DNA of 64,000 nucleotides from Liolophura sinensis (lineage: Eukaryota; Mollusca; Polyplacophora; Chitonida; Chitonidae). Under the pieces are notes generated by a model that was not told the DNA's origin, ran no database searches, and saw only the letters and a program-made list of their open reading frames with translations. Position 1 is the first letter of the stretch; the number at the start of each line of letters is the position of its first letter. Shown one piece after another: positions 38,011-62,382 of the stretch. The stretch spans positions 1,488,001 to 1,552,000 of the forward strand of contig NC_088300.1 of the NCBI RefSeq assembly GCF_032854445.1. The letters are read 5' to 3'. A program made the translations under genes and the position numbers.

Positions 38011-38328
38011 CCTGATAAACTAATTCACGTTTTAGAGCTTTACATCTCTCCGTGAGAGTTTTACACCCCTTTGTGCAAACTCCGTCGTAACTTTATGGGT
38101 TTACGTAATGTGGCATTATAACACTGTGTGAGATCGCAGAGCACCATTGATTTTAGTCGACTTAAACCAAAGATCTGGAACCTGCATGTAGTACATGACG
38201 GTTTGTCCTCGGAAAGTCTCTTACGGCGTCAATTTCTATTGTGTTACAGACCAAAGGTTATAGCGGCTGAATACTGTAGCAATCCATTTATACTAAAGAC
38301 AGAGGAACACTGAGCAGGCAATAATAAA
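38011..38328 (+). promoter_or_regulatory. 5' flank of patched-domain gene copy B
   Basis: Unique sequence between the end of the satellite and the first ATG. It must hold the 5' UTR and probably the core promoter, but I cannot identify a convincing TATA box or initiator. It is not similar to the flank upstream of copy A (533 onward). Confidence 0.3.
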
Positions 38329-39329: not shown

Positions 39330-41910
39330 GTAAGGCAATTGTACATTGCTTGAACATGGGTATTGAAAAAATTAAATGGCGGGAGATAGAACAAAACAAT
39401 AAGATATGCGTACTTTTTTGGCAAATGTTACGATATTCTCAGTCATTTAAATCATTTTCGGATTTTTTTGCCCTTAAAAATTGAAGAAAGAATTAAAACA
39501 TTGTTTTTGTGTTGTTCTTGATAACAAAAACGTGCTGTAATATTCTTGTGGACTCATTTTTAATTACGTTTGGACTTTTTGAAGTCAAAATGATATCAAA
39601 AGAATGGTGAGTGCTGAAATGTAACCATTGCTATAAAACAGTAAAAGTAGTTGTCATTTACCTGGTAGATTATATGATACCACATACACACTATGGAATC
39701 CTTACCTTTTCTTTTCCTGGGTCTAGCTGAGCTTGTTCGTGTTTCACTTTCAGGGGTTGGTGTTGATGGACGCATTCATCTTAATGTCGGGCTGGTCAGA
39801 AAACCGGGAAGCCATAAACATCCCTGATAGAGTGGCGGCCACCATGAGGACCAGTGGCATGTCATCACGCTGACCTCTCTCACAGACCTGGTGGCCTTTC
39901 TGATCGGAATGACCAGCTCCTTCTACTCAGTGAGGATATTCTGCTTGTATACAGGTAAGGGTGAATACAGTTTTGATCTGTTTTAGGAATCATTTTGACA
40001 TGTTTCATGTATAATGTGAAGGTAAAGGTTGTAGAGAGATAAACGCTCTTCAACACATTTCATATCTAATTGCGTTTGTTTTTTCAGAGAAAAAATGTGT
40101 TTTTGTATTTTTCTGATTAAATTCTGCTTTTTCCACAGCTTTGACTATCCTGTTCTGTTACCTGAACCAAATCACGCTGTTTGCCGGATGCTTGGCTGTA
40201 CACGGACGTAGAGTGGAACAAAACCGGCACTGTGCCACGTGTATGGTGGTGAAGTCGGCAGATGAGATCAGGAACAGCACGCAAACAGAGATTAGAGAGG
40301 ACTCTCCAGGAGGATCAACGATAGCTTACCCATCAAAGGAAAATGCGACCTACAGAAAACACACCAACAAAGCCAGCCTTCACCAGTCAGCTCCTGAGAG
40401 ACACAATGCCATTCCAGTGACATCAAGAATTAAAAGTTCATCTGCCAGCTTGTGCTTACAGCTATGTTTCTGTTCCGGTCAACCGTCTCAGAAACTGGGC
40501 GACGATGGTAACTGCTTTGAGTGGGCGCCGCGTAAACGTCTTCCTACCCTTGTCCTGTCTCTACCTGCCAAGATCTTGATTGTTCCCATGTTCTTAGGTT
40601 ATCTCGCAATGTCTATCTACGGGGTTATCTATTTACGACAGGGCCTCGAACTGAAGAACCTTATAGCTCCGTCTTCGTATTTCTATGAATATACTAACTG
40701 GAACACGGATCACTATCAGCAACGTTTCTTGGTTACGTTTTTTGTCAGTCAGTCGCTGGCTTACAATGACGACACAAATATAAACACACTGGAAAACCTT
40801 TTTGAGGAGGTGAAGGCTGACAGCACCATACAAGACAACTTCCAGATCTCCTGGATGACCACTTACCAAAACTCCACTTTTTATGACCCATCCACCAAAG
40901 AGAATTTCTCAGGCGGACTGAAAAAGTTTCTTCTGCATTATCCCTTGTTTGAGAACGATATTAGATTTGGGGACAATTCGTCCGAGATCACGGGCTCACG
41001 GTTTCATTTTCAGACAGTTGATCTCCCAGATTCTTCACAGCAAGGACAGTTCATGATAAGGATGAGAGACATTGCTTCTACATCCGGTATCTCGGTTTTC
41101 GTGTACTCACCGCCATTCCTCTACTTCGAGCAGTATATTGCTATCTTGCCCAACACGTTACAGACTGTAGGAGTGGCTGTGGCGGCCATGTTCGTCCTCT
41201 CAGTGATCTTTATTCCCCACCCCCTCATGTTTGTGTCTATTACAGTGTCTATGGTGTCTACACTGACGGGGATACTAGGGTTCCTGTACTGGTGGGATCT
41301 CACCCTCAGCTCTATCACAATGCTTCATCTCGTCACCGCCACGGGCTTCTCCGTGGATTACTCCGCTCATATCTGTCATGCCGTGATGCAGAATGGGAAA
41401 CTGGGCACCAGCAGACAAGATGTGGTGTCCAGGGCACTGGCTGTCACAGGAGGGCCAATACTGAACGGTGCACTCTCTTCATTTATTGGTATTTTGTTTC
41501 TGGCGCCCTCAGAATCCTATATTTTCAGTTCGTTTTTCAAGGTAATGTTACTGGTGTTGTTGTTTGGAATAGTCCATTCTATTCTGTTCTTACCGGTGTT
41601 TTTCTCCCTCTTCGGACCAGCAGAAAACTTAGTAAGAAGAAATGATCGCGATCGAATTGAGAACAAATCGTCAAACCATGAGCTTCCCATTGAAATATCA
41701 CCCGTCGACGGTGCTGAGGACCAATTTGCCCTGCCATGGAACAGTCATCATCGCTACAAAAGTTATTCTGGATATAATTTGCAAAATACCAATCAAATTG
41801 TACCAGGGAGTAGCGAAGAAGCTAGGCGCACTTTGTCTAGCGATGAGATCTGGTACACTCCAGGAGGGACCGATAAAAACGAAGTACAAATAAAACAATA
41901 TAATATATAG
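38329..41910 (+). CDS. Patched-domain-containing membrane protein (PTCHD3-like), copy B, whole gene
   Basis: Three exons (38329-39329, 39754-39954, 40139-41910) with GT/AG borders in consistent phase 1 give a patched-family (RND-type) multi-pass protein. Visible parts: N-terminal membrane segment (WWFIIGSVLVNGGLGVLLLG), luminal domain, sterol-sensing domain with the GVGVDD..ILMSGW motif across the first splice junction, then a second half with GLELKNLIAPSSYFYEYTNW, a membrane block with GFSVDYSAHICHAVM, and a cytoplasmic tail. The first two exons carry about six single-base indels relative to the expected frame; the third is fully open. It is either a recent pseudogene or a gene hit by consensus errors. 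The ligand is not deducible. Confidence 0.8.
39754..39954 (+). CDS. Patched gene copy B, exon 2 (frameshifted as assembled)
   Basis: The acceptor CAG ends at 39753 and the donor GTAAGG begins at 39955. The joined sequence carries the signature G-V-G-V-D-D-A-F-I-L-M-S-G-W of the sterol-sensing domain, then SENREAINIPDRVAATM, SLTDLVAFLIGMTSSFYSVR and IFCLYTG. It needs removal of one G near 39768 and one added base near 39863 to stay open. Confidence 0.75.
40139..41910 (+). CDS. Patched gene copy B, exon 3 (intact)
   Basis: The acceptor TTCCACAG ends at 40138; the phase-1 join gives TGALTILFCYLNQITLFAGC. The exon is open for about 590 codons to TAG at 41908. It has FAGCLAVHGRRVEQNRHC, a cytosolic loop, a membrane segment near KILIVPMFLGYLAMSIYGVI, a second luminal domain with several N-x-S/T sites, and a membrane cluster (TVGVAVAAMFVLSVIFIPH through ILFLPVFFSLFGPAENL). 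The tail is polar. No indels, in contrast to exons 1-2. Confidence 0.88.
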
Positions 41911-43693: not shown

Positions 43694-43905
43694 ATGAAAA
43701 TGAAAGAACCCATAGCAATCGTTGGATTGGGATGCCGATTTCCTGGAGCGGGAAACTTGGACGAATTCTGGAGAGTGTTATCAAAGGGAGAAAACCATGT
43801 CATAGACGTGCCGCCGGACAGATGGAACATAGATGCATGGTATCATCCGGACGCTCCTGGGAAGATGTACACACGAAAACTGGGCGCTGTCAAAGGGTTT
43901 GTAAT
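43694..43905 (+). CDS. PKS exon 1: KS N-terminus
   Basis: ATG at 43694 (a second in-frame ATG follows two codons later) starts [20 protein letters not shown], the classic ketosynthase N-terminus, followed by [20 protein letters not shown] and [12 protein letters not shown] place the donor at GTAAAA (43906): this gives phase 2 and the smooth join [16 protein letters not shown] with exon 2. The more obvious GTAATG at 43901 would be phase 0 and would only fit a later acceptor at 45106 with loss of HDE. Confidence 0.82.
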
Positions 43906-46900
43906 GTAAAACTACATGTAAAAAAATGTAGGCCTGTATCCAAGGGATACACATCGTTTGAAATCCGGTATCCTTTTAACGGTTATGATGATTGGTGTCG
44001 CAACTGCTTGTGCAGACATGACATTGATGTCTGAATGACCTTCCCACATACGATCGGAGAGGAAGTCTGAGCTTGTGCATTGGCGAGGGGCTCCTTTATC
44101 ATCGTTCGGCGCTAGTACGTTCTCCTCCTCAGATCCAGCTTTAGCTAGGCTTCAGTACCGTTACTCGTGATCATAGTACCGGTAATGCTTATGTATCCGT
44201 GATTCTACTACGGTACTACAAAGCTATAAATGGGCGTTCCAAGTCGATAATTGCAAAACTCATTTCCAAAACAACCTGACTTACAGTAGTTCCCAATGTG
44301 TAATGTGTAAATGTGTAAACAATGTGTAAAAAATAACATACATAAATAGTAAATAAAGCTGCTAACATGTAAGAGAGAAGCAAACAACAGATTTCGCTGG
44401 TGTAGATCGGTGTTCGGAGGCCCTGAATGATCTGTCCATATTTGCCAACCAGTACACTATACTCAGTACATGTTTTAGGAAACTTGGAGTGAAGGCGCTT
44501 GATGGAATACCTTTAAATATTAGTTTTTAATTAAAACCTTGTGACGTAGGTTTCATAATTACATTTTACATTTGATCTAGTAAACGTTTCAAGACGATAT
44601 ATGTGTACGCTATGTGTAGGACATTGAGGTACATTACTATCCAAGCAAGGATACATCACAGTTTCATACTGGAAGTTATCCCTTTTGTCATAAAGGCGGC
44701 GCGACATGAGACGTTGGTCAACATTGTACAGACATACGAAATAAGATGCCCTAGCAGAACTAGTCGTCTACTTCTTGGTAATTTCTGCACATACAGTAGT
44801 CGTATTCGTACAGTCAGGTTTAAAGGCCTGTTAATAGAGGTGCTTAACTTGTACCTATATGAACCCATATGTACCTGTATTCACCTGTAAGGAATCTGGC
44901 ATTCACCTGTAAGGAATCTGGCATTCACCTGTAAGGAATCTGGTATTCACCTGTAAGAAATCTGGCATTCACCTGTAAGGAATCTCACATTAAAAGAGAT
45001 GTGAGATTAAAGAGACTATATCGAAAAATCGACAACACTATAAAAAGTGCAGGTACTAGTCTAATAATTCACTGAAATTTTTTTATGTTTTTTAGACACG
45101 ATGAGTTTGACAATCTTCTGTACGGAATCAGCGAATCAGAGTCGATTAAGATGGACCCTCAGCAGAGATTTGTGCTGGATTCGGTCCATATGGCACTGGA
45201 GGATGGTGGGTTTACCAGGGAACAGCTTCGGGGCAGTAAAACTGGTGTCTATATAGGTAACTAAACATTCTGTTCAAAACATGGCCTTGTTTACCTAGTA
45301 CAGCCCCCCCCCCCCCCCCCCAAAAAAAAAAAACAAACACCTTTTTTATCAAGTGCATAAAACAAGCGTCTAATCAGGTAACTAAACAATCCATACAAAA
45401 CACAGACTTGTTTACAAAGTGGAATAAAACAGGCGTCTATATATACAGGTAACGAAATAATCCATACAAAACACAGACTTGTTTACAAAGTGGAATAAAA
45501 CAGGCGTCTATCTATACGGGTAACGAAACAATACATACAAAACACAGACTTGTTTACGAAGTGGAATAAAACAGGCGTATGTGAATACAGGTGGCTAAAC
45601 GTTCTGTACAAAACACAGGGACTTGTTTATTAGGCAACAGCTTTGGGACAGGGGTAGGGGGCTGATGGATTTACACCTTACTCAAGAATAGTTCGGCGAC
45701 AGTACAGCAGCCAGCTCTGCTCGTAGATACATTCTATTGATAGTACAATGGCCAGCTCTGCCCATAGATACATTCCAGTGACAGTACAGCAGCCAGCTCT
45801 GCCCATAGATACATTCCAGTGACAGTACAGCAGCCAGCTCTGCTCGTAGATACATGTACCTGCAGCCATTTAGAGTATAGACGACAAGGGAATGGAGAGT
45901 AATACCAAGGCAGCTAAGATAGTGTGATAGTTGGCAAGTACATGGAAAACCGTAATCACTGACATTTTTACCTTAATACTTAGTGTTTAGTTCTAACTTT
46001 TCAGGTAAATAGCAGCTACTTACATCTCCCCACCCCCACCCACCTCTCACACAACTGAAACCGAGATAGGCAACATTATGTAACGATGTCGAAAAGTGCA
46101 CAAATGCTGTGAAGTCATCATATTTAGTACAATGACATGAAGATAAAATGGACCAGGCCTCGGCGAATGCTTAGTCCATTACCAGAATCCCGGTTGATGC
46201 GGGCATATAATTGATTAAACAAAGACAACACAGGTGGCCAAGTGGTCACAAGTAACCAGTAAAAATCCGATGTTATTATGACAATATTTATGTAAAAACT
46301 TAGATACTGGCAACATGTACCCCCTCCACCCACAGCATGGCTAAAACTTAGATAGTGACAACATATATCCACTCCACCCCCAGCATGACTGTAACTTAGA
46401 TAATGACAACATATATCCCCTCCACCCCCTATATACTATATAAATATGCATCCGCATAAACAGTAATTGAAATTCTTGTAGAAATCACTCGACTTGAATT
46501 ACTTAGATATCGTGTAGTGGTCACGTATCGGGGAAATCCAGCGCCGCACCTGGACATGTACCTAGCAAACCTACTGACGCATGGCTCCTTGGTGACAGAC
46601 TACTGCTGCGAACTATAGAGCTCTACGCAAGCCTGTTCTCTGAACGGCTCTGTGATTACTCTTGTGACTATCAAAGTTAACCATATATAACCATATATAT
46701 ATAACCATATATTGACACAAGTAAGCAGGTTCCACTCCTAAAATGTTTCATATTATGTTATTTATTTCAGGATCGATGAATACAGACTACTCAGACATCC
46801 TTTCAAAACACGTAGAAGTGGCTGATAATTACCACTTGACTGGATCTGCCAACAGTATAGTGGCCGCCCGGGTATCTTATGTGTACGATCTCCGCGGCCC

Positions 46901-49900
46901 GGCTGTTACCTTGGATACGGCCTGTTCCTCTGCTCTCATGGCCATCCATTTGGCCTCACAGGGCCTTTCCACAGGTGGGTGCTCCAGTGAATTTTAAATA
47001 CATAATAATAACGTGGAATACTTAGATGTAAGGATTCATTTTTTAAGCTAGTGCAGATAACTGCTGTGGGTAATTCTCCAAAGACAAACGACTCCTAATG
47101 ATAAAAAAGGTAGAGTTGGGAATAAAGACCTTGTTCTGTAGAAAACCAGTGAAAAAGCATGTTGATGTTAATGGCGGTCTAATGCTGGGCCCCAGTCGTA
47201 ACACTGTCAAACATCCATGGACATTCTAATGCAGGGCCCTAGTCTTAACACGGTCCAATTTCCATGGAAAGTCTAATGCTGGACTCGAGTCGTAACACTG
47301 TGGAACTTCCATGGGCAGTTTAATGCTCGGCTCCAGTCGTAACACTGTGGAACTTCCATGGACAGTCTGATGCTGGGCCCCAATCGTAACACTGTCGAAC
47401 TTCCATGGATAATCCAAAGCTGGTCCCCTGTCGCAACACTGTCGAACTTCCATGGGTGGTCTGATGCTGGGCATGAGTTGTAACACTGTCGAACTTCCAT
47501 GGACAGCCCAATGCTGGTCCCCAGTCGTAACACTGTCGAACTTCCACCGGGGGTTTACTGCCGGTCCAAAGTTGTAACAATGTTCAACTTCCAAGGGCAG
47601 TTTTATTCTGGTCCTCAAACGAAACACTGTCGAACTTCCATGGCCAGTTTAATGTTAGACCCCAGTTATATAGCTGCGCCCCAATCGTAACACTGTCCAA
47701 CTTCCATGAGTAGTCTAATCCTAGTCCCCAGTCGTAACACTGTCGAACTTCCATGGGTAGTCCAATCCTGGTCCCCTATCGTAACACTGTCGAACTTCCA
47801 TGGGCAGTCTGATGCTGGGCCCCTATCGTAACACTGTCGAACTTCCACCAGGGTGTTTAATGCTGGTCCCAAGTCATAACACTGTCCAACTTCTATGGGC
47901 AGTTTTATTCTGGTCCCCAAATGAAATACTGTCGAACTTTCAGGGCCAGCTTAATGCTGGGCCCCAGTCGAAACACTGTCCAACTTCCATGGGCAGTTTT
48001 ATTCTGGTCCTCGAATGAAACACTGTCGAACTTCCATAGCCAGTTTAATGCTAAACCCCAGTTATAACACTGTCGAACTTCCATGGGGAGTTTAATGCTG
48101 GGCCCCAATCGTAACATTGTCCAACTTCCATGGACAGGCCTAATGCTAGGCCCCAGTTATAACACTGTCGAACTTCCATGGGCAGTCTAATGCTGGTCCC
48201 CAGTCGTAACACTGTCGAACTTCCATGGGTAGTCCAATCCTGGTCCCCAGTCGTTACACTGTCGAACTTCCATGGGCAGTCTAATGCTGGTCCCCAGTCG
48301 TAACACTGTCGAACTTCCATGGGTGGTCCAATCCTGGTCCCGAGTCGTTACACTGTCGAACTTCCATGGGCAGTCCAATGCTGGTCCCCAATCGTAACAC
48401 TGTCGAACTTTCATGGGCAGTCTAATACTGGGCCCCTGTCGCAACACTGTCGAACTTCCATGGGTGATCTGATGCTGGGCATGAGTTGTAACACTGTCGA
48501 ACTCCATGGGCAGCCCAATGCTGGGCCCCAGTCGTAACACTGTCGAACTTCCACCGGGGTTTACTGCTGGTCCAAAGTTGTAACACTGTCCAACTTCTAT
48601 GGGCAGTTTTATTTTGGTCCTCAAATGAAACACTGTTGAACGTCCATGGCCAGTTTAATGCTAGACCCAGGTTATAAACACTGTCGAACTTCCAAGGGTA
48701 GTCTGATGCTGGGCACGAGTTGTAACACTGTCGAACTTCCATGGACAGCCTAATCCTGGTTCCCAGTCGTAACACTGTCGAACTTCCATGGGCAGTCTTA
48801 TACTGGGCCCTAATCGTAACACTGTCGAACTTCCATGGGCAGCCTGATGCTTGGCCCCAATCGTAACTCTGTCGAACTTCCATGGGGGGGGGGGGGGTTA
48901 ATGCTAGTCCCCAGTCGTAACACTGTTTAACTTCTATGGGCAGTTTTATTCTGGTCCTCAAATGAAACATTATCGAACTTCCACCGGGAGTTTAATGTTG
49001 GGCCCCAGGTGTAACACTGTTGAACTTCCATGGGCAGTGCCATGCTGGTCCTCAAATGAAACTCTGTCGAACTTCCATGGCCAGTTTAATGCTAGACCCC
49101 AGTTATAACACTGTTGAACTTCCATGGGCAGTGCCATGCTGGTTCCCAGTCGTAACACTGTCGAACTTTTACGAGCAGTTTTATTCTGGTCCCCAAATGA
49201 AACACTGTCAAACTTCCATGGACAGCTTAATCCTATATTCCAGTTATAACACTGCGAACTTCCATGGGCAGTCTAATACTGGTCCCCAGTCGTAACATTG
49301 TCCAACTTCCATGGACAGCCTAATGCCGGCTTCCAGTCGTAACACTGTCCAACTTCTACGGGCAGTATTTTTCTGGTTCCCAACAGATACACTGTCAAAC
49401 TTCCATGGGCAGTCTAATAGTGGGCCTCAGTCGTAACACTGTGGAACTTCGACGGTTTGTTTAACGCTAGTTCCCAGTCGTAACACTGATGAACTTCCAT
49501 GGGAAGTCCAATGCTGGTCCCCAATCGAAACAGTGTTGATATTCCATGGGTAGTATAATCCTGGACCCCAGTCGTAACATTGTCGAAGCTCTATACATTT
49601 TGAGAATTAGATTGAGGCTTCATTTCACTGTGGTTTAATTGAGCACATTTATGGCTCAAATTGTTTGCTAACAGAGTAATTTGAAGATAAATATTTCTTA
49701 GAGACATGTTATTTTAAACATTTGTACGTATTGTACTTAGAGTATACACATACAAGTGACTGAAAATATCTAAAACATGAATGAAGATACCATCAGTGTG
49801 TGCAGTACAGTTCCCATGCTAACTTTAGTTTCTTAAACTATTAATCTCTACTGCCAAGATTTATTTGATTTATTTGATTGGTGTTTTATGCCGTACTCAT

Positions 49901-52900
49901 GAATATTTCACTTATACGACGGCACCCAGCATTATGGTGGGTGGAAACCGGGCACAGCCCAGGGAAAACCCACGACCACACGCAGACTGCTGGCAGACCT
50001 TCCCACGTACGGCCAGAAAGGAAGCCAGCATGAGCTGGACTTGAACTCACAGCGACCGCATTGGTGAGAGGCTCCTGGGTCATTACGCTGCTCTAGCGCG
50101 CTAACCAACTGAGCCACAGAGGCCCCCTACTGCCAAGAATTCGCACCTAACTTAGCTCTGTATCAAATATGACATATTTTTATCGACAAGAGCACGTTCG
50201 TGTATTTTTACTTTTTGCCAGGCGACTGTGACGTTGCTCTGGCTGGAGGAGTCAATCTGGTCATGTTACACATTTCCGGGGTGTACCTGAGTCAAGCACG
50301 GATGGCCTCCCGTGTTGGTCAGTGCCAAGCCTTCTCAGCAGATGCTGGACGGATACGTAAGAGGAGAAGGTTGTGGGGTTGTTGTACTGAAAAGATTGTC
50401 TGATGTAAGTTTTGTATTTCAAAGATAAAAATATCGGCTCTGATAAAGAATGCAATATTTGTTGAACCCTCACAAATAGATAAGAGCTTCCTGAGCCTCC
50501 TAGTAACGTATAAAATGTATACACCGAACAAAGGTGAGGCAAACAAGCATTAGTACCTCAGTAATTGTCACAGGCAAACAAGCATTAGTACCTCAGTAAA
50601 TGTCACAGGCAAACCAGCATTAGTACCTCAGTAATTGTCACAGGCAAACAAGCATTAGTACCTCAGTAATTGTCACAGGCAAACCAGCATTAGTACCTTA
50701 GTAATTGCCACATTTAAACGAGCATTAGTACCTCAATAATTGTCACAGGCAAACAAGAATTAGTACCTCGGTAATTGTCATTGGGAAACCAACATTAGTA
50801 CAACAGTAATTGTCACTGGGAAACCAGCATTAGTACCTCAGTAATTGTCACAGGCAAACAAGCATTAGTACCTCAATAATTGTCACTGGTAAACCAGCAT
50901 TAGTACCTCAGTAATTGTCACAGGCAAACAAGCATTAGTTCCTCAGTAATTGTCACAGGCAAACAAGCATTAGAACCTCAGTAATTGTCACAGGCAAACA
51001 ATCATTACAACCTCAGTAATTGTCACAGGCAAACAAGCATTAGAACCTCAGTAATTGTCACAGGCAAACAATCATTACAACCTCAGTAATTGTCACAGGC
51101 AAACAAGCGTTAGTACCTCAGTAATTGTCACAGGCAAACAAGCATTAGTACCTCAGTAATTGTCACAGGCAAACAAGCATTAGTTCCTCAGTAATTGTCA
51201 CAGGCAAACCAGCATTAGTACCTCAGTAATTGTCACAGGCAAACAAGCATTAGTTCCGCAGTAATTGTCACAGACAAACAAGCGTTAGTACCTCAGAAAT
51301 TGTCACAGGCAAACAAGCATTAGTACCTCAGTAATTGTCAAAAGCAAACAAGCATTAGTTCCTCAGTAATTGTCACAGGCAAACAAGCATTAGTACCTCA
51401 GTAATTGTCACAGACAATAAAGCATTAGTACCTCAGTAATTGTCACAGGCATTCAAGCATTAGTACCTCAGTAATTGTCACAGGCAAACAAGCGTTAGTA
51501 CCTCAGTAATTGTCACAGACAAACAAGCGTTAGTACCTCAGTAATTGTCACAGGCAGCAAAACAAGCATTAGAACCTCAATAATTGTCACAGGCAAACAA
51601 GCAGTAGTACCTTAGTAATTGTCACAGGCAAACAAGCATTAGTACCTCAGTAATTGTCACTGGTAAACCAGCATTAGTAACTCAGTAATTGTCACTGGTA
51701 AACAAGCATTAGTACCTCAGTAATTGTCACAGGCAAACAAGCATTAGAACCTCAGTAATTGTCACAGGCAAACAATCATTAGAACTTCAGTAATTGTCAC
51801 AGACAAACAAGCGTTAGTACCTCAGTAATTGTCCCAGGCAAACAAGCATTAGTACCTCAGTAATTCTCACAGGCAAACAAGCATTAGTACCTCAGTAATT
51901 GTCACGGGCAAACAAGCAATAGTACCTCAGTAATTGTCACAGGCAAACAAGCTTTAGTACCTCAGTAATTGTCACAGGCAAACAAGCATTAGTTCCTCAG
52001 TAATTGGCACAGGCAAACCAGCATTAGTACCTCAGTAATTGTCACCGACAATAAAGCATTAGTACCTCAGTAATTGTCACCGACAATAAAGCATTAGTAC
52101 CTCCGTAATTGTTACGGACAATAAAGCATTAGTACCTCAGTAATTGTCACAGGCAAACAAGAATTAGTACACTCAGTAATTGTCACAGGCAAACAAGAAT
52201 TAGTACCTCGGTAATTGTCGTTGGGAAACCAGCATTAGTACCTCAGTAATTGTCACTGTTAAACCAGCATTAGTACCTCAGTAATTGTCACAGACAAACA
52301 AGCATTAGTACATCAGTAATTGTCACAGGAAGCCAGCATTAGTACCTCAGTAATTGTCCCAGGCAAACAAGCATTAGTACACCCAGTAATTGTGACAGGC
52401 AAACAATCAGTGCTCCAAAAAAAGAGCAGGAGAGAAAATCTACACAAAAGGGCATCAAGACTGCCACTGTCAAGTCTGCACCGCGAGGATCCAAAACATA
52501 AATAACAAAGTGAAATGTCTAATGTCTCGGCATGCTCTTACATCCTCTTGATTTGAATTAAGTCAGAATTAAAATATTTGAACAATGCTGTATAATTAAG
52601 ACGCACAACATAGAGAGTAACACAAGAGCAGCGACAACAGTGTGATATCTGGCAAATAGCCACACGTGACCGGTGAAATACCGCCTCTTGTTATTTTACC
52701 TCAGTTAGAGACATCTCCTAACACCACGTTTTTAGGAGAATTATGTCAGGCCACATAGCAGAGAAAACTATCTCAAAATACAGTTAATATTTGACATGGA
52801 ATAACCTTAATTCCATTCGAACAGTGAAATTTGATACTTTTGGTAAAACTACCTCAATCAGTTTTATCATTTACTTTAGTGTCAGTGATATATAGCAAAA

Positions 52901-55900
52901 TATTTTATCACATAATCAAAATTCACAGAAAATTGGGTTAGTGTGAGCTCACTGCCATCATGTCTTTGTCAGGCTTTGAAAAGCCGAGACAAAATCTGGG
53001 GCACGATCATCACTGAACAAACCAAGATGGCCACATGACACAGCCGATTACAGCTCCCTCTGGTGATCAACAGAAACAACTTCTAGAAGATATGTACAGC
53101 CGTCACAATATCGACAAATCTACAGTGCAGTACATTGAAGCACACGGTAAGATATCCTCTAATATGCATGAACCATCTCTCAGTGGAATTATCTCAAAAT
53201 AGGTAAAAGTTGAGTAACAGGGCCGAAACCACTTTATACGAATTTCATAATCCACCCATAACCCAGACACATTAAGTACCTGTTCTAGTAACTTCTCAAA
53301 CGCCAAGAGAAGTGCAATTTTTTTACCTAATTCTCCTTAAGCCATTGTGGTACGGGGCGTGTAAATTGTGACTATTTATGCATTTACATGAACAGTTAAA
53401 ATAAAACCCTGACTGAGGTAACATGACAAGAGGAAGTATTTCCCCGGTTACCTGTGACCATTCGCAATCTATCACACTGTCTCGGGAGCGGTGATGGGGA
53501 ACGAATTGGAAACAGCCCTAATTTTTTTTGATGAAACCTTCCAGATTTATCTTTTCCTCTTAGCTGTAGCAGGAATGAGGTCAGATATGTACTTCTTCAT
53601 TGTGCCATTATATAAAAATCTTGAACTGTTTCTGCACAGAAAAATAATCTCACCTTAACCGTACGCTTTTACTGACGTTCCAGGCACAGGTACCCCTGTA
53701 GGAGACCCTATAGAAGCGAACTGCCTCGGCAGATTTTTCGGACAAGATGGCAAGTCCCGACATATTGGTTCAGTGAAAACAAACATTGGACATCTGGAGG
53801 TCAGCGGCAGGAGCGGCGGGGCTCATTAAAGTGCTGCTCATGATGAAGCACGAGACCATAGTGCCATCACTGTTCAGCTCAAAGCTCAACCCAAAGATTG
53901 AGTTTGAAAAGTACCATCTCAAAGTGCCTACTGATTGCGTCCCATGGGAAGAGCTGCCCTCCGGAGGTAGGGCAGCTGGTGTTAACTCTTTTGGGTTTGG
54001 GGGGTCCAACTGCCACGCTTACGTCAAGCAGTATGTGAAAACTGATCCACCAGTACCGCCTAAACCACAGAAAAATGGGTACAGAATGATTGCTGTGTCA
54101 TCTAGAAGTTCGTCTGGTTTGAAGGCCAATATCCTCCACCTGAAAGACGCGGCTGAAAAAAATCCCCTAGACATGGATGCTCTGTCCTTTACGTCAACAT
54201 GTCGACGAGATCATCACGAATACCGTTTGGCTTTTCATGCCAGTGACCAGCAGGAGTTGATAGCTGAACTAGGTAAACACCGTGTCTTTGAAAAAGTTCA
54301 ACCAGCCAAAAAACTGCGCGTCATTTATGTGTTCTGTGGAATGGGGACTGTTTGGAAGGGAATGTGCATTGATCTCTTGGATAAAGAGCAGGTTTTCAGG
54401 GACCAGTTAGAAGAAATTGACACATTACTGAAAGAATTCAACTCTGTTTCTGTAATAAATGAACTCAGAAACCAAAGCAATATACACGACCCTGCTGTTG
54501 AGCCCCTGGTGCTTTTCGCTTGCCAGGTGGGACTGACGGCCGTGTGGCGCCACTGGGGAGTGGAGGCTGATGCTGTGATTGGTCAGTCTGTAGGGGAAGT
54601 GGCTGCCGCCCACGCCGCCGGGATTCTGTCCCTCAGGTCGGCAGTAGCTGTGATCTACCACAGAACTAAGCTACTCTTACAATCAGTTGGAGGCAAAATG
54701 CTGGTAATTGGGAAATGTCCTGTTGAAAAAGTGGAAGAACTTTGCCATGAGCAAGGCGGTGGCGTTAACGTCGCCGTGTACAACAGTCCTACAAGCTGCA
54801 CCGTTTCCGGTGACGACGAAGCGGTGACCTCTGTTCGGAAATGTCTCGAATCTTTGGATCAACCTGACATGATAATCACAGAGCTTTCTGTGAAAACAGC
54901 TTATCACTGCCACAAACAAAAACCCCTGGCAAATTCTCTCATCAAGGCCTTAAATGGACTGAAGGGACAAGACGCACAGCTCGACATCGTTTCTACAGTT
55001 ACTGGTCACTTGGCATCTTCAACAGATTTTAAAACAGCAGAATACTGGGTGAAAAATCTCACAGACCCTGTTAAATTTTATCAGGGTTTATTGAATGCAA
55101 CAGATGGTGACAAATTCAACGTATTTCTCGAAATAGGACCACGCCCGGTACTTCGAGCTCATTTCAACGACGTTTTTAGTATCGGATATAGCAATGGAAT
55201 GGTTGTATCCTCAATGGAGAAGATGTCAAACACTGAAACCATGGTAAGCAGCCTTGGGAAGCTTTTTAGCCATGGTGTGAATCCCAGGTGGGCTTCTGTT
55301 ATAGTGCAGGGTGTTACACAGCTGACTGTGGAACCCAAATACCAGTTTCAGAGAACGAAAGGTTTATTTGAATCTGAAAAATCTCTCTTAGAACGCCAGG
55401 GGCTGCCAACTGTGAATGGGAGACATCCGTATGTGAATCGAGTTTCCGGGAATCTTCTCACAATGGAAATCCGGATAAATGAAAATGACACGCCATTTGT
55501 TTACTCACATGTTGTCGGCGGAGCGGCATTTGTCCCGGGATCTTTGTTCGCTGATGTCGCCTTTGAATACGCAACAGAAATATTTGAAAATGTAGTGCAA
55601 GATGTACGAGTGTCTGTGCGCTTGTTGAAGCCTGTTGGTGTCATGAAGGGCCGTAGCCAGACATTAACTTTGATGACTGAAGCACAATCTTCACACAGCG
55701 CCAGCTTCAGGATTTTACACAAAAACTCTGCGTGTGTGTTTGGTGAAGTAGTCAAATCCGGAGATTCATTCGAGCCCAAGCCCTGGGACATAGCCGCTGT
55801 CCGCATGCGGTGTACATCTTCGATGGACAAAAACGAGATATATCACAGGTTGAGGCAGTTCGGATTTGCGTATGGCGAGCAACTTCAACTGATCACGAAG

Positions 55901-58900
55901 TGTGAAGCCAATTCCGTGGAGTGCTTAGCATGGCTAAGCGTCAGCGATCTCGTGAAAACACAGATGTGTAAAACTCATCTACATCCCTCCATTCTGGATG
56001 CTATCATGCAGTCTACCTGTGCAATTTACTTCAGTACCGAGTCTTACTGGGAAGACCGTATACCTTCCATTCTTGGCGAGATTAGCATCTACAGGAAGAT
56101 CACTGGGGACATGATGTGTTATAGTAAACAGATGAGTCAGTCCAATGGGCAATTTCATTTTAGGGTTCTTCTACTAACACCTGCTGGCCAGGTGATTGCA
56201 GAACTAAAAGACTTCGTTATACAGATTTTGAGCACCACAAAGACAACCGCAGAGGATCTGGAATACGAGCTCCAGTGGGTGCCAACTGAAATCTCTACAA
56301 AGCCTCCTGATAAAAGAGCAATTTTGTTCATTCACCGGAAGCGCAAACCGGACAAAATTCTGAGTAAGCTGTCTGACTCTATGAAGGTTATTTCAACAGA
56401 GTCCACCTCAGAGCTGATGATACAAATAGACAAAGTATCTGGTGTCGTATTCTATGCAGACCTGGGTGAAGAGACTGAAGACTGTCTGATGAGATCATCG
56501 ACAGTAATGTACGACAATCTCAGGGAAGTCATCTGCTTTCTGATCAACAGCGGGAGCGACATCCCAGTGTCCGTTGTGACGGTGAATACACAAATAGCAA
56601 AGGAAGTTTCCAGTGTTTCTCAGGTGAACCTGGATGGGTCACATCTATGGGGCATGATGAGATGTTTTGTAATAGAGGACAACAGAAAGGGACAGTTGAT
56701 TGATCTCCATGACTTCACCAGGGCTACCATAGACACTTTAACTAATTCTTTGAATCCACAGGCCTTTCAAGAATTTGATTTCAGAGAACTGATGATATGC
56801 GAAGGAAAACCCTTTAAGTATTTGGTGAAAGCTGCTCTACGTGTGATGCCAATCAGGGAGAAACTTGGCCGTCAAACCGAGACTAGTCAGCCTTTGGATG
56901 TTGTCAGTCATCGTAAGACACCGGATTGTCCATACGAATTTCGGTTGGAATATTCCAAACAGACAGCAGATACTTCATCAAAAGGAGAAACATTGTCGGT
57001 AAACGTGCAATTTGTGGTAATAACAAAACCTACCAGTTTTTACACCGATGAGTCGCAAACGAATTGGGACGAAGGGCAAAGACTGGTCTGTGTGGAGGCC
57101 CTTGGCACCACCAAAAGTACGTCAGAAACTGAGGACGTCATTGTCCTTTGTCCAACATTTGCCCGAACTGTTTTAACAGTTTCAAAAGCGAATACAGTAC
57201 CAAAGTCACTCATTAAAGACTATAAGCCTGGTGTGTTGATATGTTTGGCGATGATAGAAAACATGACCCAACCAATTCCCTCCGATTCTCACGTGGCCGT
57301 CATAACTGAACCGCAGTCCAGATGTTTTGGTCAGTTGGTGAAAGCTGTTTTAAACTATAAAGGATGCATGAGCGTGGGGATTTATGAAACACTAACACAT
57401 GGAAGTATCCCAAAAGACACATCGCACATGATTTTGTTTTCAAGGTGTCCAGCCGAATTCTTCAAAACAGAAGATACTGATCAGACAATAGAAATAATTG
57501 CCATTGAAGGCTTTGCAAGAGAAAGAACAGTAGGCATCCTACTTATGAAAAAGAGGATGTTTACTTCTCGATTAATTAGACTATCGGAAGTGCTACAGGC
57601 TGACAAGATTACGAAATGCTTGGAACAAATATCGACCATGCTGTCAACGGAATGGAGAGGATTAAACGAAATCTTGAGCACATTTGAAGAAAAACATCTT
57701 GAAATCTTCGTGTCGCACGTCATTCATGTTGCAGATCAGTCAGTGCCTTTGTGTGTTACTGAACGGACGCTTTTCCGAGGAAATGCGTCATATGTTATAG
57801 TGGGAGGCCTGACGGGCCTAGGCTGGTTGATTGTTCAGTTCATCGCAGAAATGGGCGGTGGTCTGATCGCTATTACGTCACGGAGGACACCAGACGCGGA
57901 CGCCCAGGAAAAGATGCGAAAACTAAGCCAGGAGACCAAAGCCAAAATTGAATTTCTACAGGCAGATGTGTGTGACTTGAGCTCTCTTGAAAACGCCTTC
58001 GTGATCCTACAGGCAAAGTACCCTGATCACGCAGTCAAGGGAATATTTCAAGGTGCTGGTGTGCTGAAGGATTCTCTGTTGCTCTATTCCACAGCCGAAG
58101 ATTTCGAAAAAGTTGCCTCGCCTAAAATCCAAGGTTCTTTAAATCTACATAAGCTGTGTATGAAACTTGGTCTAAAGTTGGACTACTTTATTTTACAATC
58201 TTCAGTCGCATCTGTTTTCGGAAATCCAGGCCAGACAAGCTATGGTGCAGCTAACAGTTTTCTCGACACACTCGCCAACTACCGTCGTCAAAAGGGTTTG
58301 AAAGCACAGTCTCTAAACTGGGGACCATTATGTGTAGGAATGGCTGTGAGGGACGAGTCCGTAGTCAGCAGCTGGAAAAGCGCAGGGTTTGAAGCCATGT
58401 GTGAAGAGGGCATTCGAAAATGCTTAACGCATGCATTGTTGTCCAGCAAAGTACAGATGTGCTTTGCTGATCTTAGCGTCAAAGTGGAAGGCACATCACA
58501 AGACATACGAGCGGTTTTGAATGGTTCTGCGCAAGGTGTATCTGGGTCACAATCCGAGAACGTAGATATTGACTTATCGTCAATCCAGAGAATGAATGAA
58601 GAGGACAGAAAACACTCTCTCTGGAAGTATGTCAAGGCTCTTGTGACCAGTATGATCCCAGTGTCGCCAGATCTACTTCAACATTCAACTCTTTTCTCTG
58701 AGGTAGGACTCAATTCAATGGTAGCCGTTTCCTTTACAAACAGAGTGAGGGCCGATACAGGAATCCATCTACCTGCTACTCGTCTACTCTCAGAAGACCT
58801 CAAGCTGATAGACATTCTGGCAGAAATCGACAATGCTTTGACGAAAAACAAGAGTTCCACCACTGATACAGAGAGGATGTCGTCCAAACTCTCACCACTG

Positions 58901-61900
58901 ATTTCACCGACACAAGGCCTTATCTATCAAATCCATCAGCAACGTTTTCGAAATGATGTCGATGTCCTAATTTGGACAGAATTGAACACCACATTGGTGC
59001 TTTCTAAGGAAAACATCAAAGCCGCCGTGTACAAAGTGGTCGAGAGAAATAAACCAATAAGAACGATATACAAGCAGAATGGAAATCGTGTAGAGCCTGT
59101 CCTGTTGGAAACATTTCAACTTCCGGATATTATAGAACTCCGCGGAGTTGATGAAGATATCACACAACAGTTTTCAAGCATACTGAAGCAACCTTTCGAC
59201 CTGAGCAAAGACCTGCCGTTCAGGATCATTTATAACCAGTCTAATATCTCCAGTTCTAAGATCAAGTTTATTTTCCATCCAATAAGCTTTGATCAAAGAG
59301 CAGTTCATCTGTTTATCAATGAGTTCAAAAGCGTTTTGCTCTCTGAAGATTTGCTGGAAGTAAAGGATATCGATATTCCACAGGAAATTTTCAAAATTCT
59401 AAACCCTCAGTTTACGAAACTTGAGAGATTCTGGGAGAAGCGCCTGAATCCGTCTAATGACTTGCCTCTTCTGTCATTGTCCACATCGCCGGAAGACCAC
59501 ATACCCCCTGGATCGGAGAAAACCATATCTCTTTATTGTCCAACAGATGTCGTCATCGACATTATCAAAATGTCAGAAAAGTTGAAAATCACAATGTTTC
59601 AGCTTTTAGTGAGTGCCCTTCATCTTCTGTGGCATGTGTTGACTGGAGAGGACAAAGTTGGACTTCTGATGGACATTGACACACGCCAGCATGTCCCAGC
59701 CCTGAAGAACGTCATGACTCACTGCGTGAACTACCTACCTGCTATTGGCTCCTTTGACCAAGACATTACAATTGAGAGTTTCTTACAGAGCAACTCAGCT
59801 GAGGTGAGGCAGTGTGTGGAGCATGGCCTCTATCCCGGGTTTTTGGTGCTGGAGAACACGTCAGAGGTGACGGCAGCCAACATCTGTAGACATAACGTGG
59901 TTATGGAGGAGCTCACCGATCAGAAGACCATGACACATGATAAGGTAAATATTGGAAAGACTGGTGCCGTAAGTACACATCACGAGACACGACTCCGGAT
60001 ATGGGCGAGTGAGAGACGTAAGGTTCTGCAATTGCAGTTAGATTATCACCCTGGTATTGTTACTCAAAGAGCAGCAGAAACGTTTCTCGCGGACTACCAA
60101 GAGGTCGTACATTTTGTCGTACACAGTCCAAAAACTCCAGTGAAGAACATTGCTCATGCAGTGTCGTTACATTCTGTGACAACACCATCAGCAACAGTGG
60201 ACTCGAAACTGTCCACTTTATCACACGGGATCTCGGAGTCGACGCAGGAAATCCTTTTCGGGGAAGAAAATACGGATGAAAACAACACGTTGAACGAAAA
60301 TGGATATTCTCTGGACAGCAGCCTTTCATTCCTTACTGTGGGTAAGCCATTTGTCAGAGTACTAAGGAACTAAAACAATTTTACAAATTCTTCTGTCATT
60401 GCAATTTTTAACAGTTTTAACCACAGTGGACTGTATTTTCATATCGAGCATGTGGTGAAGTAAATTTTATGATAATGTTAAGATCCGCAGCTATTAAGAT
60501 AAGAAGATAAATTAGTTAAAATGGTATTTAGCACTTGTGGATATTCTTTTGGCAAAATAGTATATTATTTTAGTGATTGGAGCATTTCCCTCATGAATGT
60601 TTATCAAATCTTTGATAAGAAAAGGTGATTTCATGAATTCATTCACTTTACTACTTATTTTAACGTCGTTCTCAAGAATGCTTTTACTCACATGGCAATA
60701 GTTAGGCTAATGTGTGCAGCAAATCGAGAAGATGTTATAACTATCAGCAAAACAGAAATCTGATAGCATTATACAGATTGTTACGTGGTGACTCGTTGTC
60801 TGATTGTCGTACGTAAGTAATTTTAAATGAGTATTAAGGATTGTATTTGTTCCGCAGGTTCCTCGTATGAGATGAAAATAGGTGACGGATGTTGTGCGTC
60901 ATCTTGGGAAGACGCTCTTCTGCGCATGACCCTGCTTAACGGAAGGCCGGGTTGCCTGGAGTGGGGCCTCGACGAGTCTGGATCTGTGGGGAAGATGGCC
61001 GTGTCCCAAATCAAGAGAGTCAGTCGTCGCTCTAAAGGAAGTGAGTTAGCAAGAAAACAATTTACCAAAAGTGTAATTTGCTAAACATTTTTAATAAGAA
61101 CCAAAAAAATAATTGCAATCTTTTATAAGTGAATATAGGCGATCTGCCATTCTCGATGTTTTGACATGTTGAGAATTTCAGGGACTCAGGGGCTCTTAAT
61201 TACACAACATTATTGGTGTGATTTGGAAGAGCAGAAATGAAATCTTTTGTAGTCACAGTGTGAGTGTTAATGACCGTGGACCTATGCATGTAACTATAAT
61301 AGCCGTAGCACTATACATCCTTTGATGTACGCAGTTACACAGATAACAGTTTAATTACAGTTTAACTATGGTAGCCATCGCATTATAAAGCCTTTGATGT
61401 ACGCAGTTACATAGATCTCAGTTAAATTACAGTTTAACCATGGTCGTCATCGCATTATAAAAGCCTTTGATGTACGCAGTTACACAGATCTCTGTTTAAT
61501 TACAGTTTAACCATGGTGGTCATCGCGTTATAAAGCCTTTGGTGTACGCTGTTACACTTCAATTAGGTCTCAGTTTAAGACCCAATCCAAGGGTAGTAAC
61601 GCTAATCAGTACATTCATTGGATGCCAGAAAGACGGCCTTATGGAAATGTGTGATTCTCAGGTGTCAAACTGTGGATTTTTCTTGGCTAAAGAGTTCACC
61701 CGTTTCCACAGACAAATATTACATATATAATATGATAATAAGAATTTACTACTCCTTGTGACAATAGTAAAAACTAAACCGTATAGCGGACTGGTGTCAA
61801 ATGTCGATGGTTTACTGGATTGCTGCTAAAGGTCGGCTTGCTGGATTGGTGCCAAAGACCGGTGGTTTACTGGATTGGTGCCAAATATCGGTGGTTTAGT

Positions 61901-62382
61901 GGATTGGCGCCAAAAGTCGGTGATTTGCTGCTATGGCCAGTGATGCTAACACAGTGACTCGCTGTGGTCGCCGTGAGGCCCGGTCTACTTTATGCTGCCT
62001 TCCTGGCCGGTCGTACGTATGTGTAGAAAGCCCTGTCAGCAACCTGCGGATCGTTGTGGCTATTCTCCAGTATCTGCTTTGTTTCCTTCCACCACAGTGC
62101 TGGACACTGTCGTATAAGTCAAATATTCAACAGTACGGCATAAAATACAGTCAGATATAGAAACAAATCTTTAAGTTTAAGTTTAATCGACATGTTTCAG
62201 ACATTCATAAACTGGAAATCAAATCCTCAAACAAAACTCTCAAGTTCAGGACAAGGGACGAGACCTTGGTAGACAGATGGAGCAATGCACTGGATCGAGT
62301 GACGAGATCCAGAGAACATCAACAGACCTACGTGAATCGCGGGGCCGAGTTTGAGACAGACACACTCACAACGCATATGTAA
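43694..62382 (+). CDS. Animal FAS-like polyketide synthase with C-terminal condensation-like and PH-like domains, whole gene
   Basis: Eight exons: 43694-43905, 45096-45256, 46771-46974, 50222-50404, 52973-53146, 53684-60341, 60858-61040, 62201-62382. All junctions are GT/AG and the phases agree once three single-base indels in the KS are allowed for, giving about 2,650 residues. Approximate order: KS 1-420 (Cys176, both active His), AT with GQSVGE (Ser about 613), DH with HxxxGxxxxP (His about 920) and LDAIMQ (Asp about 1083), a degenerate enoylreductase-like region, KR with GGLTGLG (about 1684) and SYGAAN (Tyr about 1831), ACP with GLNSM (Ser about 1989), condensation-like domain about 2060-2500, PH-like tail about 2531-2630. 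No thioesterase. It probably makes a reduced polyketide or lipid-like product; the product is unknown. Confidence 0.85.
44035..44118 (-). mobile_element. SINE fragment in PKS intron 1
   Basis: Short match to the SINE at 49866-50126: GACCTTCCCAC.TACG, AGGAAG, GCATTGG.GAGGGGCTCCT, with the middle deleted. Confidence 0.5.
44879..44985. repeat. Short tandem repeat, 22-bp unit, about 5 copies
   Basis: Units of ATTCACCTGTAAGGAATCTG plus GC or GT in intron 1. Confidence 0.9.
45096..45256 (+). CDS. PKS exon 2: KS
   Basis: The acceptor TTTTTTAG ends at 45095 and the donor GTAACT starts at 45257. It encodes [38 protein letters not shown] and [16 protein letters not shown], the MDPQQR core block of ketosynthases. 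It ends in phase 1. Confidence 0.88.
45304..45333. repeat. Homopolymer pair C18-A12
   Basis: Eighteen C followed directly by twelve A, shortly after exon 2. The length is likely unreliable in an assembly. Confidence 0.9.
45355..45645 (+). repeat. About 70-bp repeat derived from the exon 2/intron 2 junction, 4 extra copies
   Basis: Each copy resembles 45235-45300: the exon 2 end (AAAACTGGTGTCTATATAG appears as AAAACAGGCGTCTATATATA) followed by the donor and first intron bases (GGTAACTAAAC, then ACAAAACACAGACTTGTTTAC). Donor-like GT sites lie near 45378, 45449, 45520 and 45591. The last copy also shows decayed upstream exon sequence (GGCAACAGCTTTGGGACAGG). Confidence 0.8.
45690..45858. repeat. 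Minisatellite, about 41-bp unit, 4 copies
   Basis: Units contain GACAGTACAGCAGCCAGCTC, TGCCCATAGATACATTC. Located in intron 2. The minus-strand open frame here (63 codons) is a repeat artefact. Confidence 0.88.
46275..46435. repeat. Short degenerate repeat, about 50-57 bp, 3 copies
   Basis: ACTTAGATA.TG.CAACAT.TA followed by CCCCTCCACCC, three times, in intron 2. Confidence 0.7.
46771..46974 (+). CDS. PKS exon 3: KS active-site Cys
   Basis: The acceptor TTATTTCAG ends at 46770 and the donor GTGGGT starts at 46975, phase 1 at both ends. It encodes [40 protein letters not shown] and [20 protein letters not shown]. The DTACSS nucleophile loop holds the catalytic cysteine (codon 46923-46925, about residue 176). 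Confidence 0.92.
47165..49585. repeat. Minisatellite, 47-bp unit, about 51 copies, in PKS intron 3
   Basis: The unit contains GTCGTAACACTGTCGAACTT, CCATGGGCAGTCTAATGCTG and GTCCCCA. Copies vary at several sites, and a 14-15 G run occurs near 48884. The minus-strand frames (up to 182 codons, [21 protein letters not shown]) are read through the repeat and are not called genes. Confidence 0.95.
49866..50126 (-). mobile_element. tRNA-derived SINE in PKS intron 3
   Basis: Read on the minus strand it begins GGGGGCCTCTGTGGCTCAGT, with an A-box-like TGGCTCAGTTGG (50105-50116) and a B-box-like GAGTTCAAGTCC (50037-50048), as in a tRNA-derived promoter. A body with GCCAGCATGAGCTG-type sequence follows, and a tail ending in AAATAAAT. 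Degraded copies are at 8612 and 44035. It is not a functional tRNA gene. Confidence 0.82.
50222..50404 (+). CDS. PKS exon 4: KS (one frameshift)
   Basis: The acceptor TTTTTGCCAG ends at 50221 and the donor GTAAGT starts at 50405. It encodes [40 protein letters not shown], then [19 protein letters not shown] only if one G near 50347 is removed. As assembled, the frame turns into [11 protein letters not shown] and stops. Confidence 0.85.
50535..52400. repeat. Minisatellite, 35-bp unit, about 53 copies, in PKS intron 4
   Basis: Unit GCATTAGTACCTCAGTAATT followed by GTCACAGGCAAACAA, starting about 130 bp after exon 4. Copies are close to identical, suggesting a young array. No open frame of note. 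Confidence 0.96.
52628..52705 (+). repeat. Short dispersed repeat, left member of inverted pair
   Basis: ACAGTGTGATATCTGGCAAA, CCGGTGAAATACCGCCTCTT and TTACCTCAGTTAGA match the reverse complement of 53403-53482 at roughly three quarters of positions. Related pieces occur near 7810, 45910 and 46230. Confidence 0.65.
52973..53146 (+). CDS. PKS exon 5: KS (one frameshift)
   Basis: The acceptor TTTGTCAG ends at 52972 and the donor GTAAGA starts at 53147. It encodes [15 protein letters not shown], then [20 protein letters not shown] and [23 protein letters not shown], the second half of the ketosynthase. One base, probably a G near 53014, must be added to pass from the first to the second part. 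The active-site His lies in EAHGTGTP across the next junction. Confidence 0.85.
53403..53482 (-). repeat. Short dispersed repeat, right member of inverted pair
   Basis: Reverse-complement partner of 52628-52705, so exon 5 sits between inverted copies about 700 bp apart. Confidence 0.65.
53684..60341 (+). CDS. PKS exon 6: KS end, AT, DH, degenerate ER, KR, ACP, condensation-like domain
   Basis: The acceptor TTCCAG ends at 53683 and the donor GTAAGC starts at 60342. The exon opens with [16 protein letters not shown] and KTNIGHLE; one extra G near 53798 must be removed to reach [10 protein letters not shown]. From there nearly 6.6 kb is open. Order: KS end (GFGGSNCHA), AT ([17 protein letters not shown] at 54587, AYHCHKQ), DH ([10 protein letters not shown] at 55508, [11 protein letters not shown]), KR structural part ([10 protein letters not shown]), a reductase-like stretch without a clear NADPH motif ([19 protein letters not shown]), KR ([28 protein letters not shown]), ACP (VGLNSMVA), then the condensation-like domain: [31 protein letters not shown] at 59276, [17 protein letters not shown]. 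Confidence 0.92.
60858..61040 (+). CDS. PKS exon 7: N-terminal half of PH-like segment
   Basis: The acceptor TTCCGCAG ends at 60857 and the donor GTGAGT starts at 61041, phase 1 on both sides. It encodes [40 protein letters not shown] and [20 protein letters not shown]. The pattern of a hydrophobic strand, L-x-W, and a V-x-x-I-x-x-V strand is what PH domains show in their first strands. The assignment rests on pattern only. Confidence 0.72.
61290..61560. repeat. Tandem repeat, about 77-bp unit, 3-4 copies
   Basis: CCTTTGATGTACGCAGTTAC, AATTACAGTTTAACCATGGT and CATCGCATTATAAAG recur in intron 7. Confidence 0.88.
61790..61935. repeat. Degenerate tandem repeat, about 29-32 bp, 4-5 copies
   Basis: GGATTGGTGCCAAA and TCGGTGGTTTACT recur with substitutions in intron 7. 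Confidence 0.8.
62201..62382 (+). CDS. PKS exon 8: C-terminal half of PH-like segment and stop
   Basis: The acceptor ATGTTTCAG ends at 62200. Joined in phase 1 it reads [20 protein letters not shown], then [20 protein letters not shown] and a polar tail ending TDTLTTHM before TAA at 62380-62382. The strand followed by D-E-x-x-x-D-R-W-x-x-A-L helix is the typical end of a PH domain. The exon is too short for the open-frame size cut and was found by splice phase. I could not exclude alternative terminal exons. Confidence 0.7.

Follow-up and report, generated by a model that had tools for sequence, protein, structure and literature searches.

A condensation-family domain and a predicted PH tail at the end of a chiton polyketide synthase and of many mollusc relatives

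What follows the acyl carrier protein (ACP) at the end of an animal polyketide synthase (PKS), and what might such an ending be for? The question is raised by a type I PKS gene on the forward strand of a 64,000-nucleotide stretch of the genome of the chiton Liolophura sinensis (assembly GCF_032854445.1, contig NC_088300.1, positions 1,488,001 to 1,552,000), hereafter the window, whose own numbering is used throughout. The gene (43694-62382) runs in eight exons from an ATG at 43694 to a TAA stop at 62382, and its domains follow the order ketosynthase (KS), acyltransferase (AT), dehydratase (DH), ketoreductase (KR), ACP and condensation-family (C) domain, after which exons 7 and 8 encode a predicted pleckstrin homology (PH) domain. 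An initial annotation of this DNA, which delimited the gene as 53684..62382 and thus covered exon 6 onward only, had proposed an animal PKS ending in a condensation-like and then a PH-like domain, and this architecture is borne out by a match to PF00668 (E 2.2e-20) and by a profile of the tails of related proteins. We consider it the more probable reading that the chiton protein is related to the C-domain PKSs already published for molluscs, and that it is a partly reducing enzyme with C and PH modules as additions at the C-terminus.

The case for the PH domain is strong because it draws on an alignment of relatives, single-sequence searches being indecisive. Spliced together, exon 7 (60858..61040, with the first half of the domain) and exon 8 (62201..62382, with the second half and the stop codon) encode about 120 residues beyond the C domain and its linker. 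They are joined in phase, both flanking introns being of phase 1 with GT..AG borders, and the models of relatives join them as well, in agreement with the initial assignment of both exons to the gene. As a single sequence, the window tail retrieves nothing convincing from the PDB by sequence search and scores E 0.08 against PF00169 (13.9 bits, below the gathering cut-off of 25.1), and the best Pfam values for the tails of relatives are 1.8e-5 for PH and 6.5e-6 for PH_21 (3 of 17 in each case). A match of the tail to FKBP appears only when the linker is included and was put down to chance. The C domains of relatives are followed, on the other hand, by a common ending of about 100 residues, which reads roughly G-x-F-x-K-Q-T-x-x-G-W-x-H-x-V ... 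L-x-W ... Y-x-F-K-T-x-D ... W. A hidden Markov model (HMM) of 18 non-chiton tails, from which the window and the Liolophura protein P0001 were excluded, ranks the open reading frame (ORF) of exon 8 first among all 2,134 ORFs of 20 residues or more in the six frames of the whole window, with E-values per one sequence of 5.4e-8 for exon 8 and 9.8e-4 for the runner-up, which become about 1e-4 and 2 when multiplied by 2,134. With this model the ORF of exon 7 alone is not significant (0.0065), and the spliced window protein reaches 1.5e-9. In a profile-profile comparison, the two chiton tails match the tail profile of their relatives at 5e-7 over 64 columns. The tail of a Pecten (scallop) relative was modelled, P0001 being set aside because its frame disagrees with that of the window near the end of exon 7, and yielded a PH fold with seven strands and a C-terminal helix. 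Among the solved folds nearest to it are ARAP3 and DAPP1 with inositol tetrakisphosphate, as well as TAPP1, which binds phosphoinositides. By homology, then, the prediction of a C-terminal PH domain in exons 7 and 8 is well supported. The HMM search suggested by the initial annotation thus recovers the condensation family directly, and the PH family with the profile of relatives but not from the single sequence; structure prediction gives a PH fold for the scallop tail, to which the chiton tail is assigned by homology.

The same ending recurs in other molluscs. At E <= 1e-10, a search with the KR-ACP region of P0001 yielded 558 proteins; we examined the 120 of them that were listed, and the counts given here hold among these. 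The tail is present in 22 of the 32 NCBI-named mollusc models with a C domain, most of the 22 having contributed to the tail profile, and these span eight genera. Relatives ending in this way include scallops, mussels and clams, all of them molluscs and hence lophotrochozoans, the group in which the initial annotation had proposed to look for the same domain order. Seven of the 22 tails match over about the first half only (P0012, P0064, P0071, P0072, P0084, P0086 and P0090), and the last six of these stand outside the 18-tail set, yet match at 8e-12 to 9e-17. The tail is also found in four of 31 ORFs with a C domain that are not named by NCBI (P0047, whose C domain is cut, was left out). These four run in one frame from a Met before the KS to the PH domain on contigs of 8.2-9.2 kb, and they contain PF00109, the N-terminal KS family, which is present in none of the other 27; given the full frame, the size of the contigs and the open KS, we infer that they are transcripts. 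Among the 27 tail-less ORFs, eight have [ILV]LK[ST]G among their final 40 residues, as opposed to none of the 1,471 other 40-residue segments of the same proteins, although the pattern was chosen after the ends were seen. Since this end resembles the start of the PH domain in spliced models, the tail of these eight may lie beyond an intron.

Several variants of the ending were also encountered. The Solemya (clam) PKS P0091 has an ACP and the tail without a detected C domain, and the NCBI model P0067 (Argopecten irradians) has two C domains in tandem before the PH tail, with identical motifs in the part shown, which is possibly a real duplication or an assembly artefact. A PKS of the amphioxus Branchiostoma belcheri (P0098), with an AMP-binding domain, carries near its end a seeming PH-like first half (residues 2363-2428); this match and that of the Mercenaria tail P0123 are weak (domain E 2e-5 and 3e-5 for one sequence) and serve as leads only. 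A Patella tail looks alike by eye, but it is missed by the tail HMM and reaches only 0.019 (probability 2.4) by profile comparison, and it is not claimed here. As judged from these sequences, the putative PH tail is common to many mollusc PKSs and not an oddity of one gene.

Several observations weigh against the reading of the gene as a PKS with added C and PH modules. The modelled scallop tail is only 20% identical to the P0001 tail, and 27% identical to the window over the 64 matched columns. The match obtained with the chiton tails left out spans strand 3 to the helix and not the first two strands, which in the chiton are placed by position and by 71% identity of exon 7 to P0001 2548-2589, followed in exon 7 by a second matching piece in another frame. 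Exon 8 is 60% identical to P0001 2609-2665. The conserved GWxH motif is altered in the chiton tail, and P0001 and the window diverge in frame near the end of exon 7, so that one of them is off; where they differ, it is the window reading that fits the PH profile. Finally, 10 of the 32 mollusc models have no detected tail, namely six from Gigantopelta, one from Haliotis, the Liolophura protein P0002 and two from Patella (tail not assigned).

The domain preceding the tail belongs to the condensation family. It lies at 58982..60151 (residues 1736-2125 of the exon 6 ORF), scores 73.3 bits against PF00668 (cut-off 30.6) and matches tyrocidine synthetase 3 in the PDB at 7.1e-9. When the window domain is combined with seven relatives into an eight-sequence profile, 55 PDB sequences are matched at E <= 0.001; the best of them is linear gramicidin synthase (5.2e-29), and LovB, MokA and TqaA are also among them. 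The condensation landmarks named in the initial annotation are present and in order; the catalytic motif is nonetheless changed, for the counterpart of HHxxxDG reads HPISFDQ (59276..59296), with the second His replaced by Pro and the Asp kept. This motif was compared between 66 C domains of 65 animal proteins, the window being included and one partial domain dropped, and 22 domains from 8 non-ribosomal peptide synthetases (NRPSs). The full HHxxxDG is found in none of the animal domains and in 16 of the NRPS ones, HHxxxD in one (P0001) and 20, the second His in 27 and 21, and the Asp in all 66 and all 22. Pro takes the place of the second His in the window, P0002, P0011 and P0012, while P0001 reads HHxxxDQ. 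According to the portion of Rausch et al. 2007 (PMC1894796) considered here, the second His is essential for catalysis and the Asp is structural, and the terminal X domain of glycopeptide NRPSs, in which that His is replaced, is thought to be inactive. Hence, the family has been kept whereas its canonical chemistry probably has not, at least in the window copy, which is most likely a non-canonical terminal domain. In a tree of 42 C domains, from 38 of the 65 animal proteins and four bacterial ones, the window groups with P0001, P0002, P0012 and P0011 at 100/100; the tree needs three changes of PH label, and its long branches leave the deep order unsure.

These features set the chiton enzyme apart from its closest known counterparts. 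The nearest relatives found are both from Liolophura sinensis: over exon 6, P0001 (labelled 'mycocerosic acid synthase-like', LOW QUALITY) shows 79.7% identity, with 441 differences across 2,171 aligned residues, and it has the same tail but HHxxxDQ in place of HPxxxDQ, whereas P0002 (LOC135466619), 55% identical, has a C domain with HPxxxDQ but no tail. A trailing C domain, known from fungal reducing PKSs, is thus present in an animal PKS, but it is not new, given that the parts of Lin, Li, Krug and Schmidt 2024 (PMC10764717) considered here already describe such domains on mollusc PKSs, which were detected by means of antiSMASH and InterPro. The same source counts 378 PKSs in mollusc data and describes genes with few introns, mostly N-terminal, and C-termini thought to recombine. 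The window PKS shares with that clade the C domain and the N-terminal introns, five of them preceding the 6.66 kb exon 6, and has two more after it, ahead of the PH exons. The words 'pleckstrin' and 'PH domain' have no occurrence in the main text of PMC10764717 as considered here, and its section 8 holds no discussion of the altered His motif. The X domain is a terminal C-family domain like that of the window, with Arg instead of Pro at the second His (PMC1894796, same portion), but it belongs to bacterial NRPSs, and not to an animal PKS with a PH domain downstream. The fungal LovB, MokA and TqaA carry C-family domains on PKSs or NRPSs and are matched by our profile at 1.1e-10, 6.8e-12 and about 2e-7; in contrast to fungal terminal C domains, the chiton copy has lost the catalytic His. 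To our knowledge, no PH domain follows the C domain of these three enzymes. The PH domains of GRK2, ARAP3, DAPP1 and Akt reside on kinases or signalling proteins, and no polyketide or fatty acid synthase appears by title among the 50 structural matches listed for the modelled tail. The titles and opening lines of abstracts in the literature searched gave no report of a PH domain on a PKS, and within that literature both the PH tail and the change in the catalytic motif look new.

How the product might leave such an enzyme is suggested by the rest of the chain. AT (PF00698, 54323..55279, E 6.2e-47), DH (PF21089 and PF14765, 55457..56233, E 3.3e-5, just below its cut-off, and 8.1e-18), KR (PF08659, 57785..58330, E 2.9e-51), ACP (PF00550 with GLNSMVA, 58628..58789, E 2.7e-4, 21.6 bits against a cut-off of 20.8) and the C domain sit in one open frame of 2,198 codons (53777-60373). 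A Pfam scan of this frame found no enoylreductase family between DH and KR, no thioesterase in the window PKS, and neither an A domain nor a second carrier domain in the ORF, and hence no acceptor module on the same chain. The KS-to-ACP part would build a partly reduced chain on the ACP, and, no thioesterase having been found, the adjoining C-family domain, at the end of the assembly line, would be placed to receive or shield the completed acyl chain. Where relatives retain the second His, for instance as [SN]HxxxDxxS, this domain may catalyse release, transferring the chain to an alcohol or amine; in the window copy it would more likely be a non-catalytic gate or scaffold. The PH domain, which need not bind phosphoinositides, could then dock the megasynthase on a protein partner or membrane, so that the product is made at one site in the cell.

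The alternative of a terminal C domain that is active in release, forming an ester or amide as fungal terminal C domains do, with the PH domain bringing it to a membrane-borne acceptor, deserves serious attention, even if we hold it to be clearly the lesser possibility. Fungal terminal cyclising domains carry the motif SHxxxDxxS (a literature search for this string gave no confirming paper), and 23 of the 66 animal domains, out of the 27 with the second His, read [SN]HxxxDxxS; the C-domain profile, moreover, reaches TqaA and LovB. The second His is kept in 22 of 28 domains from PH-tailed proteins (the window and the four unnamed ORFs included), as opposed to none of the eight from NCBI models without the tail; from this count two Patella models, with the second His but no assigned tail, are left out (two of ten if they are included). 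These sequences are related and not independent, however, six of the tail-less eight being from Gigantopelta, and the Pro in the window, P0002, P0011 and P0012 speaks against release by this route. A non-catalytic gate or scaffold remains the more likely role in the window copy.

A second alternative concerns the state of the gene itself. The window copy may have become a pseudogene recently, or gene conversion may have overwritten parts of this paralogue; in either case its C and PH exons would say nothing of a working protein here, and the intact relatives would remain informative; we find this conceivable but doubtful. All seven introns of the gene start with GT and end with AG. Exon 1 (43694..43896), with the start codon and the KS N-terminus, is 88% identical by tblastn to residues 1-68 of P0001 and ends at a GT donor, and exons 2 (45096..45256, KS, 93% to P0001 69-123) and 3 (46771..46974, KS with the active-site Cys in DTACSSAL, 97% to P0001 122-192) both have AG..GT borders. 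The KS coding sequence then shows three single-base frame breaks, near 50346 in exon 4 (50222..50404, matched by tblastn in two pieces, 93% and 100%, that differ in frame), near 53014 in exon 5 (52973..53146, again two pieces in different frames) and near 53800 in exon 6 (53684..60341, from the KS end to the C domain). Neither these breaks nor the Pro at the second His nor the sharing of the tail by many mollusc PKSs had been noticed in the initial annotation. In favour of decay, besides the breaks, no protein identical to the window PKS appears among 10 matches listed. On the other hand, a coding stretch of about 0.35 kb contains all three breaks, and each alters by one the length of a one- or two-base G run, as consensus errors can do; all splice sites are intact, and the comparison protein P0001 is itself labelled LOW QUALITY. 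The last break is followed by 2,175 stop-free codons of exon 6, where about 11 stops would be expected without selection, assuming that half of the 441 amino-acid differences arose without selection on the window branch. Hence, the gene has been under constraint for most of its history, and the breaks may be consensus errors or young mutations.

Gene conversion is suggested by abrupt changes of identity to the Liolophura paralogues along the protein. In residues 1-300, 1321-1500 and 1981-2040 of the exon 6 ORF, identity to P0001 is 83-100%, as opposed to 47-75% elsewhere (it reaches 93-100% in places), and identity to P0002 is 85-100%, 63-75% and 92%, respectively, with 92-100% in places. Such a pattern points to conversion among PKS copies, to which differing constraint could contribute. 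Two large minisatellites, at 47177-49587 (47-bp units) and 50537-52406 (35-bp units), fill most of introns 3 and 4.

What the tail binds is a further matter. The initial annotation had viewed it as a lipid-binding module, and a phosphoinositide-binding membrane anchor would fit the PH fold of the modelled scallop tail and its likeness to ARAP3, DAPP1 and TAPP1. A phosphoinositide-binding PH domain usually bears the basic signature K-Xn-[KR]-X-R. Of 17 relatives, 16 retain its Lys after strand 1, and the tail is basic, with an isoelectric point of 8.7 or more in nine of 12 examined (9.6 in the window). At the beginning of strand 2, however, the residue that follows the conserved His is basic in 4 of the 17 and not in the other 13, and the window reads an acidic WEDALLR there, so that lipid binding is unsupported by the usual residues; many PH domains, besides, have protein ligands or no known ligand. 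We thus regard a phosphoinositide anchor as unlikely, and, the basic signature being incomplete, rank protein docking slightly above lipid anchoring on these sequences. The PH tail is most likely a docking module. Least of all does the evidence favour exons 7 and 8 as a separate downstream gene not joined to the PKS, which is highly improbable and, for the relatives, largely refuted: 27 of the 31 ORFs not named by NCBI do end before the tail, but these lack PF00109 and so resemble single genomic exons (eight ending in LK[ST]G), while NCBI models in eight genera join the exons to the PKS, and the four full-length ORFs on transcript-sized contigs join C domain and tail.

With a docking module as the preferred reading, the C-PH ending suggests that the mollusc enzymes bearing it are tethered to a membrane or a partner protein. 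More generally, and with somewhat less than even confidence, we propose that a terminal PH domain directs the entire assembly line to a membrane or signalling partner in many PKSs of molluscs, and perhaps of further animals; the extension to other animals draws on the weak amphioxus match and on the ACP-PH order without a C domain in Solemya. If so, this would be a kind of subcellular targeting undescribed for polyketide or fatty acid synthases in the literature searched, and it would be combined with a C-family domain taken over from peptide synthesis for another use. For the release and placement of products by mollusc PKSs, the shared PH domain and the altered C domain would offer two handles, on where the product is made and on how it leaves. 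Such a tail is easily overlooked because it scores below threshold in Pfam and, in the chiton, is split over two small separate exons.

The surroundings of the gene provide some further observations. A Patched/NPC1-like transporter gene (38314-41910) lies on the forward strand, like the PKS, and stops 1.8 kb short of it on the upstream side; its best PDB matches are NPC1 (8.2e-26) and PTCH1 (2.3e-25), with no Pfam match at 1e-3. In mycobacteria, RND-family transporters also adjoin lipid PKSs, and by this analogy a functional pair of transporter and PKS is conceivable. A stretch on the reverse strand at the edge of the window (2-556) closely resembles the start of the transporter by eye. Farther upstream, 28627-30696 on the reverse strand holds a LINE-like reverse transcriptase ORF of 689 amino acids (PF00078, 1.8e-29), and a third large minisatellite, with units of 44, 88 and 132 bp, extends over 31132-37955.
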